NCBI RefSeq assembly: GCF_022539405.1
Contig: NZ_CP054394.1
Coordinates: forward strand, 2,501 to 66,500
DNA length: 64,000 bases
From: Natranaerofaba carboxydovora
GTDB taxonomy: Bacteria > Bacillota > Natranaerobiia > Natranaerobiales > Natranaerofabaceae
Direction: 5' to 3'
Part shown: piece by piece, positions 15,631 through 18,068 of the stretch
Layout of the letters: every line of letters starts with the position of its first letter
Position numbering within the stretch: the first letter of the stretch is position 1
The notes under the pieces: model-generated
Told to the model about the DNA's origin: nothing
Database searches by the model: none
What the model saw: only the letters and a program-made list of their open reading frames with translations
Made by a program: the position numbers and the translations under genes

Positions 15631-17619
15631 ATGAGTATAGGGAGGAAGTATTCAATATTAGTAGTTGTATTACTTTTAGTAGCCTGTGTTTCTATAGCTA
15701 TTTATAGTTATATTACAAGTAGTAATACTGTAACAGAAGCTTCAGAAAATACTTTGTATAGATCGGCATACATAGCTTCTGAAAGGCTTGACGAGTGGCT
15801 TGATAATAGAGTTAATGTTCTAAATGAGCTTAGCAGAATGGAAGGTCTAGAGGACATGGATATTGAGGAGCAGAGAGAAGCCCTTCAGGGAGAGGCAGAA
15901 AGGCTTGGCTTTCTTGACATTGGAATAGTTGAACCTGACGAAACTGGCTATACGCAGTACATAGAGGACGAAGAAGCTGATGCTGAGTTAGGAGATAGAG
16001 ATTATGTTCAAACTGCTTTAGAAGGTGAACCAAATAGTTCAAATGTAATTATTAGTAGGGTGATCGATGCACCTGTCTTGATGCATGCAGTTCCTATATA
16101 TGATGAAGCCGAAGAAATAGTGGGTATTATGATCGCTAGAGATCTTGCGGAAACAATTCAAGAAGTTACAGATGGTTTAGGTTACGGTGAAACAGGGTAT
16201 TCTTATATTTTTGGTGAAGATGGAACTTTTTTTGCACATCCAGATATGGAGCTTGTAATGGAGGAAGTTAATATTTTTGAAGATGAATCTACTCAAGATT
16301 TTGGAAGGGCAATCGAAGAATTAGACGGTGAAGATGGTGTGGTTAGCTATGATTATGAAGGAATTACTAGATATCAAGGTGTCTCTAGGATGGATAATGG
16401 CTGGTATGTTGCTGTGGGCATGGAAGATGTAGAGTTTTTGGCCCCAATTTATACTATGAGAAACGCAGTTATTGTCTTTACAGCTATATTAATAATTGTG
16501 GCAACAGGTATAAGCTTGTATGGAGGCAGAAAGATGATTTCTCCAATTAGCAAACTAGATAGTATGCTAAATCAAATGGCAGATTATGATTTTTCTCTGA
16601 ATAGTGAAGAACTTTCGGGATTATCAAATAAAAAAGATGAAGTTGGTTCTATTGCAAGCTCTATGATAAAGATGCAGAAAAATGTGGTTAAATTAATAGA
16701 CAATATTAATGACAAATCAGAACAGGTAGCTGCATCTTCACAAGAGCTTAGTGCAAATACAGAGGAAAACAAAAATGCTGCTGATGAAGTTTCTAAAGCG
16801 GTAGAACAAATTGCTGAAGGGGCTAGCAATCAAGCAGAGAGAACAGAGCAAACTTCTATTAGCACTGAAGAATTTGGAAATATGATAAACAATGAACAGC
16901 AATATGTAAAAGAATTAAATACCAAGGCTGATGAGACAGATGAATTAAAAGAAGAAGGGCTTAAAGTAGTTGAGAATTTGTCTAAAAAGACAGCAGAGAG
17001 CAATAAGGCTTCTGAGTCAATTTATAATACAGTTATAGCAACGAAAGAAAGTGCAGATAATATAGGCCAAGCTGTGGATACTATAAAAGACATTGCTGAA
17101 CAGACAAACTTGCTGGCTCTTAATGCAAGTATAGAAGCCGCTAGAGCAGGAGAGACAGGAGCAGGTTTTGCTGTAGTGGCAGACGAAATACGTAAACTGG
17201 CTGAGAATGCTAATGAAAATTCTGAAAAAATTTCGGATATTGTACATGATTTAAATGAAAAATCCAATCATGCAGTAAATACTATGAAAGAAGTTCAGGG
17301 AATAGTTACAGAACAGAACCAAGGTGTAGAAAATACAAGATCTAAATTCAATGATATAGCTAATAGTATACAAAATGTAAAAGAGATTGCAAAGGTTTTA
17401 ACTGAAACGGGACAACACATGCAAGAGAAGAAAAAAGAAATAATTGATGGATTGCAGGATTTAGCGTCTGTTGCAGAAGAGAACTCTTCAAGTACAGAAG
17501 AAATTTCTTCTTCGGTAGAAGAACAAACTGCTTCGATGGAAGAGATATCAAGGGCTAGTGAACAGTTGGCGAATCTTGCTGAAGGAATGCAACAAGAGAT
17601 ATCAAAATTTAAATATTAA
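15631..17619 (+). CDS. methyl-accepting chemotaxis protein with dCache-type sensor
   Basis: A 662-residue receptor. A first membrane helix (residues ~7-29) and a second (~278-298) enclose an extracellular domain of ~250 residues. Its segments [20 protein letters not shown] and [11 protein letters not shown] are typical of dCache_1 sensors for small ligands. A HAMP region follows, then the long cytoplasmic coiled coil with the conserved hairpin tip [20 protein letters not shown]. The extracellular domain is strongly acidic, as expected in a saline or alkaline habitat. The ligand is unknown. No other chemotaxis gene is near, and the mRNA has a long structured leader. Confidence 0.95.
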
Positions 17620-17646
17620 AAAAAAGAACCCGGCGTTTTGCCGGGA
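17616..17646 (-). terminator. intrinsic terminator ending the orphan cobalamin-riboswitch RNA
   Basis: On the minus strand CCCGGC-AAAAC-GCCGGG (17645-17629) is followed by TTC and a run of eight Ts that overlaps the chemoreceptor stop codon. It is the last of three hairpins downstream of the riboswitch and would stop that RNA before it enters the chemoreceptor coding sequence. Confidence 0.85.
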
Positions 17647-17658
17647 TGGTGGTAACCT

Positions 17659-17708
17659 TGTATACAAATTAACCCCCTGGTACAAGGCAGGGGGTGAGTT
17701 TGTATACA
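17659..17708. repeat. nested inverted repeat in the riboswitch RNA 3' part
   Basis: An outer perfect 10-bp stem, TGTATACAAA (17659-17668) with TTTGTATACA (17699-17708), encloses an inner 7-bp GC stem, CCCCCTG (17673-17679) with CAGGGGG (17688-17694), with an eight-base loop. Neither strand has a T-run after it, so it is not a normal terminator. Confidence 0.8.
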
Positions 17709-17752
17709 GCAGTTAAAATAAATGACAATGATAATATTCCTGAATACAGGAG

Positions 17753-17802
17753 TGTATAAAAATTAAATCCCCGGCATAGTCGGGGATAATTTTTTGGTAT
17801 AC
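17753..17802 (+). terminator. hairpin between chemoreceptor and riboswitch; terminator on the plus strand
   Basis: ATCCCCG (17767-17773) pairs with CGGGGAT (17781-17787), and outer A/T pairs extend the stem towards 17753 and 17802. On the plus strand six Ts follow, so it can end chemoreceptor transcripts after a 3' UTR of ~175 bases. On the minus strand it is an internal hairpin of the riboswitch RNA. Confidence 0.7.
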
Positions 17803-17845
17803 AATATATCACCTTCTCTATACCTCGTAGAGCGGTAGTGAACCT

Positions 17846-18018
17846 TAAAACAGGCAGGTGTCCTGGCTTGAGATCACAGCAAAACCTTGCGCCTTCCCGG
17901 GGTTGTTTATTTAGTACCCAGTGGCATATTGCAAGCTTGCTCCCTCTTACAGTGGCGGGACCGCACCGGAATTTCACCGGTTTCCCTATTAAGTCCAAAA
18001 ATGGACCACCTGTTTTTA
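17846..18018 (-). promoter_or_regulatory. cobalamin (B12) riboswitch without a downstream gene
   Basis: Read on the minus strand, the class signatures appear in order: GGGAAACCGGTGAAATTCCG, then CCGCCACTGTAAG, then TGCCACTGGG, and the B12 box CAAGCCAGGACACCTGCCTG. The P1 stem closes AAAACAGG with CCTGTTTT. A promoter lies directly upstream. Downstream on the minus strand there is no open reading frame with a ribosome binding site. Three hairpins follow, the last a terminator, and then the 3' end of the chemoreceptor gene in the opposite direction. The element is thus an orphan riboswitch that seems to make an RNA of about 410 bases with no coding part. Confidence 0.93.
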
Positions 18019-18039
18019 AGCGCTATTTACTTTTGTTAA

Positions 18040-18068
18040 ATACTATCAGAACCTGGATAGAATGTCAA
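18040..18068 (-). promoter_or_regulatory. promoter of the orphan cobalamin-riboswitch RNA
   Basis: On the minus strand TTGACA (18068-18063) and TAGTAT (18045-18040) are exactly 17 bases apart, placing the transcript start near 18033, about 15 bases before the riboswitch P1 stem. It lies in the gap after the mutS-like gene, so the RNA need not depend on read-through. Confidence 0.75.

Follow-up and report, generated by a model that had tools for sequence, protein, structure and literature searches.

Analysis of a 64,000-nucleotide stretch of DNA (the window) from Natranaerofaba carboxydovora, a haloalkaliphilic carboxydotrophic acetogen (PMC12835891), points to a cobalamin riboswitch that, from its own promoter, would control the production of a non-coding RNA in place of a gene. 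Behind the aptamer, part of the RNA body is complementary to the mRNA of acsC, which lies elsewhere in the genome. We suggest that the locus encodes a B12-riboswitch-controlled, trans-acting small RNA (sRNA) that lowers AcsC and so spares corrinoid, a reading to which we assign, on sequence grounds, a probability of about 0.58. That cobalamin shortage turns on a trans-acting RNA repressing the mRNA of a Wood-Ljungdahl corrinoid protein, so that cofactor supply directly tunes acetogenic carbon fixation, seems to us slightly better than an even bet. The features of the locus are the following:

18040..18068, minus strand: sigma-A type promoter TTGACA-17-TAGTAT (10/12 matches, TG before the second hexamer)
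17836..18028, minus strand: complete cobalamin riboswitch aptamer (RF00174, 125.3 bits, E 4.6e-31, model 1-189)
17807..17824, minus strand: 3' strand of P13/L13, GGUAUAGAGAAGGUGAUA, proposed 5' half of an antiterminator (paralog alignment, truncated folds)
17773..17788, minus strand: UAUCCCCGACUAUGCC, proposed 3' half of the antiterminator, overlapping the 5' arm and loop of hairpin A (truncated folds)
17767..17787, both strands: hairpin A, bidirectional intrinsic terminator (by terminator criteria on both strands; z -4.5)
17709..17743, minus strand: linker, proposed antisense seed, complementary to codons 95-106 of the acsC mRNA
17659..17708, minus strand: hairpin B, arms TGTATACAAA...TTTGTATACA around ACCCCCTG/CAGGGGGT (folding)
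17619..17645, minus strand: hairpin C (17645-17629) and T run TTCTTTTTTTT, final terminator of the minus-strand RNA (terminator criteria)

An earlier note on this DNA had described a sigma-A promoter, a complete B12 riboswitch, some 220 bases without a gene behind it, a final GC stem with a T run and an RNA of about 410 bases, and all of these elements are recovered here. The promoter (18068-18040), a strong one, places the predicted transcription start near 18033 on the minus strand. A covariance check assigns the aptamer to RF00174 with the full model spanned and a score far above the gathering score of 31.5; nine cobalamin aptamers are found in the 3.26 Mb genome, the one in the window included. 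The stretch 3' of the aptamer folds far more stably than its shuffles (z -6.6) and comprises about 215 nt without a credible gene. Hairpin C, followed by TTCTTTTTTTT, puts the 3' end at 17619-17620, and the predicted full-length RNA measures about 415 nt. As had also been reported, the next gene on that side runs the opposite way: it encodes an MCP chemoreceptor of the dCache type (15631-17619, plus strand) and is therefore convergent with the minus-strand RNA unit. The upstream neighbour is a MutS-like gene, for which a scan of genome contigs returned distant relatives only.

Between the aptamer and the final stem two hairpins had been taken for non-terminators. This does not apply to the first of them (17787-17767, hairpin A), which qualifies as an intrinsic terminator on either strand and has TTTAATTTTTA as its minus-strand tail. 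Its position is that of the terminators in the paralogous riboswitches. In truncated folds GGUAUAGAGAAGGUGAUA (17824-17807) pairs with UAUCCCCGACUAUGCC (17788-17773), which would exclude terminator A; this pairing is only moderately above shuffles, 3.2% of which equal it (P 0.03). By computation, the aptamer is followed by an expression platform consisting of terminator A and a competing pairing. Given that hairpin A occupies the site of the regulated terminator in the paralogs and that an antiterminator can be drawn, B12 probably stops transcription at this point, and the downstream body would be made when B12 is absent. The direction assumed here (termination with B12, read-through without) is that of the usual logic of the riboswitch class. 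We propose that hairpin A serves as a B12-regulated terminator on the minus strand and as the MCP terminator on the plus strand.

Comparison with other riboswitches shows what is unusual about this locus. The other eight riboswitches of the genome and the eight of two order-level relatives display, by eye, terminator-like hairpins and then a gene. The window riboswitch aligns best (57-61% identity) with those before the genes for a CDP-alcohol phosphatidyltransferase, an LPG_synthase_TM protein and an Opp-type ABC ATPase, and shares the P13/L13 strand with them. Except for one locus (L013), all riboswitch loci fetched from the phylum precede genes; L036 and L024 were considered as gene-less cases and rejected, as both precede genes. 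At L013 (positions 1-687, genome G029) a B12 riboswitch with the same type of P13 and a terminator is followed by no gene up to the high-copy repeat in which the contig ends, which makes it at most a candidate for a gene-less case. Neither the two order-level relatives nor 299 other genomes of the phylum contain the RNA locus. A repeat element was rejected as an explanation of the 3' region, which occurs once in the genome and in 0/299 other phylum genomes. acsC scores above the cut-off in this genome and in neither order-level relative; among the three genomes of the order, acsC and the RNA are both found in this one only, which is consistent with the proposed link but weak with three genomes.

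Some further observations were made on these riboswitches and their surroundings. Four B12 riboswitches of the same genome (L001 1501-2696, L002 1501-2851, L004 1501-3194 and L006 1501-3191) stand before unusual genes, encoding a CDP-alcohol phosphatidyltransferase, an LPG_synthase_TM (YbhN-like) protein, a 4Fe-4S protein with an aldehyde ferredoxin oxidoreductase, and an Opp/Dpp-type ABC ATPase. The gene at L001 may be independent of the switch, given a separate TTGACA promoter-like site beyond the riboswitch terminator. In one relative (G001; L105 3691-4226, flipped) two cobalamin riboswitches stand in tandem ahead of ECF-type transporter genes, with about 165 nt between them, and in the other (G002) the same pair is separated by a gene. 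Finally, four sampled stretches of the genome (L088, L091, L095 and L098) share an intergenic repeat some 150-220 bases long, whose copies show inverted matches to one another and which is possibly MITE-like.

When the 3' region is searched as DNA against the genome it belongs to, one clear non-self match results (E 1.8e-4), at 3138710-3138744 (G000:C1). The matched segment lies within acsC on the plus strand, and the RNA is antisense to the mRNA of this gene. Model NF003195 identifies the product as acetyl-CoA decarbonylase/synthase subunit gamma (608 bits, cut-off 306), the corrinoid iron-sulfur protein of acetyl-CoA synthase. The gene sits in a CODH/ACS gene cluster, about 146 kb from the riboswitch locus across the numbering origin. 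The match coincides with the linker between a small hairpin, located after terminator A, and hairpin B: linker positions 17743-17709 and acsC codons 95-106 can form 30 Watson-Crick and 4 G-U pairs with 1 mismatch over 35 positions. When the whole genome was searched with a wobble-aware pattern that tolerates up to 3 mismatches, the acsC site and the locus itself were the only hits, and a control pattern had none; across 380 kb sampled from the genome, every site on either strand has at least 6 mismatches. A single target is found for the candidate sRNA. Further genes with B12-binding domains were rejected as targets, with best scores (plus strand of the locus) of 27-39 against 67 for acsC. The expectation that the RNA has a target other than an ANTAR protein thereby gains a specific candidate, acsC mRNA by base pairing; literature searches returned nothing on such an RNA for acsC.

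The significance of this pairing was assessed with an ungapped score (G-C 3, A-U 2, G-U 1, mismatch -4), in which acsC reaches 67. Extreme-value fits give P ~2.4e-4 for both genome strands and P 2.3e-4 for coding sequence (800 shuffles); the value for the linker alone (P 2e-5) is too favourable, since the match was already known when the linker was singled out. Real intergenic controls, with 362-364 segments as queries, result in a moderate significance of P 1.8e-3 to 2.2e-3: against 310 kb of coding sequence none attains 67, the top score being 64 and the next ones stemming from intergenic repeats. A first intergenic control was inflated by such repeats, and the control figures given are those against coding sequence. 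All P values leave out the corrinoid identity of the target, which was noticed afterwards and is extra support that is not multiplied in. Overall, the RNA has a complementarity to a distant mRNA that is beyond chance, as sought in a base-pairing sRNA.

The energy of the predicted duplex amounts to -41.7 kcal/mol; opening the sRNA costs about 9 and opening the target 8.6-10.2, which leaves a net energy near -23. Duplex energies computed with free loops are not discriminating (acsC -43.7, best background -42.7). The linker is mostly unpaired when the RNA body is folded; in a full-length fold, which ignores the tertiary structure of the aptamer, it is partly paired with other parts of the RNA, including the 5' leader. 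The pairing is located inside the acsC coding region at codon 95, away from the ribosome binding site. A decayed sense copy of acsC on the plus strand was also considered as the source of the match and rejected: the similarity ends at both edges of the 35 bases, only one of the five changes affects the third base of a codon, and the four transitions all preserve the RNA pairing. Separately, the plus strand carries a short TTG frame (MYTAVKINDNDNIPEYRSV) behind AGGGGGTGA at 17690-17760 of the window, in the MCP 3' UTR, which spans the acsC-like segment in sense orientation. This 3' UTR could also serve as a decoy for the sRNA.

Taken together, the locus may operate as follows. With B12 bound, transcription would stop at hairpin A after about 270 nt. 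In the absence of B12 the antiterminator would form, and polymerase would pass hairpin A to produce the RNA of about 415 nt that carries the linker. The linker could then pair over its 35 nt with acsC mRNA within the coding region and lower the output of AcsC, probably through cleavage of the duplex or blocked elongation. When the cofactor is short, the cell would in this way cease making a corrinoid-dependent protein. Of this scheme, the sequence shows the promoter, the aptamer, the terminators, the absence of a gene and the complementarity with its statistics; that the RNA is transcribed, that it responds to B12 and in which direction, that it pairs in the cell and that it represses acsC are inferred. 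A B12-controlled small RNA, as put forward in the earlier note, is still the best reading, although that account missed both the regulated terminator and the antisense match to acsC.

The main rival to the sRNA is a riboswitch orphaned by the loss of a B12-regulated gene, in which case the hairpins would be terminators of two convergent units and the acsC match a product of chance. In its favour, genes follow 16/16 other riboswitches of the order (three genomes) and nearly all of the loci examined in the phylum, and the SD-like P13 strand here conforms to the usual type. However, aptamer, promoter, terminator A and antiterminator look intact, and a chance match has a probability of 2e-4 to 2e-3 and would have to fall in a corrinoid gene. 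A relic of a lost gene was sought in the three minus frames and rejected, one Pfam match (E 0.047) being discounted. We consider such an orphan unlikely, though it deserves to be taken seriously. A gene might also be present in miniature. The statement that no frame with a ribosome binding site exists holds as far as a credible gene is concerned, but it overlooked an SD-like GAAGGTGA (17816-17809) a few bases before a TTG at 17804, which opens a 13-codon frame (17804-17763) that might be translated under B12 control. Against this, the frame starts with TTG and crosses the terminator stem. Paralogous riboswitches have the same SD-like strand at the same place without a start codon behind it, so we read GAAGGTGA as part of the switch rather than of a gene, and a short coding gene appears least credible of all.

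Two other explanations retain a non-coding RNA and give it a different task. With hairpin A as the proposed MCP terminator on the plus strand, the read-through RNA and the convergent MCP mRNA would overlap by about 170 nt, and the former might affect MCP in cis, as AspocR acts on pocR. Yet the overlap concerns the 3' UTR only and includes no coding sequence, and this dCache receptor is without a known B12 link; we regard a cis-antisense role as improbable. Alternatively, the read-through hairpins might sequester an RNA-binding antiterminator protein in the manner of EutX and Rli55, given that the layout is alike (an aptamer, a terminator, then hairpins and no gene) and that the genome encodes one ANTAR protein. 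As had been pointed out before, however, the loops (ACUAUGC, UAUU, CCUUGUAC and AAAAC) do not fit the A-x-x-G-x-x rule, and dual hairpins with such hexaloops are not found. The sole ANTAR gene, judged by its flanking genes, lies between glutamine synthetase-like and carA-like genes rather than with eut genes. Sequestration of an ANTAR protein such as EutV was rejected on both counts, which makes a protein sponge very improbable.

The sRNA proposed here can be compared with several known systems. EutX of Enterococcus and Rli55 of Listeria consist of a B12 riboswitch with its own promoter and a B12-stabilised terminator after the aptamer; without B12 a longer, trans-acting non-coding RNA is made, which keeps B12-dependent enzymes off (PMC5821096, PMC8079631). 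The same logic of promoter, riboswitch, terminator and longer RNA is proposed for the window RNA, but whereas EutX and Rli55 sequester EutV through an ANTAR dual hairpin, the window RNA would pair with an enzyme mRNA. AspocR of Listeria is an RNA ended by a B12 riboswitch, which represses a B12-linked gene without B12 and is capable of acting in trans (PMC8079631). It is a 1.4 kb antisense RNA to the adjacent regulator gene pocR, in contrast to a short seed directed at a distant enzyme gene, and the window RNA does not overlap the coding region of its neighbour. As the defining features of both types (ANTAR loops and overlap with a neighbouring coding region) are lacking, we do not file the window RNA with either of them. 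SreA, from a SAM riboswitch of Listeria, is a riboswitch-derived RNA that pairs in trans with an mRNA (PMC8079631). There the terminated product is active and an operon is controlled in cis, whereas here the read-through product would act and no operon follows.

In cofactor sparing of the RyhB type, scarcity of a cofactor leads to an sRNA that lowers the proteins needing that cofactor. The sparing logic is the same, but RyhB is under the Fur repressor, concerns iron and is not riboswitch-controlled. Known B12-riboswitch non-coding RNAs belong to the eut and pdu systems (Listeria, Enterococcus), where their target is a regulator protein or the gene encoding it. If correct, the present proposal would add a riboswitch counterpart of RyhB-type sparing whose direct target is a corrinoid enzyme mRNA, and the Wood-Ljungdahl pathway would be controlled post-transcriptionally by its own cofactor. 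It also suggests a search rule, namely to screen gene-less riboswitch RNAs for antisense seeds.
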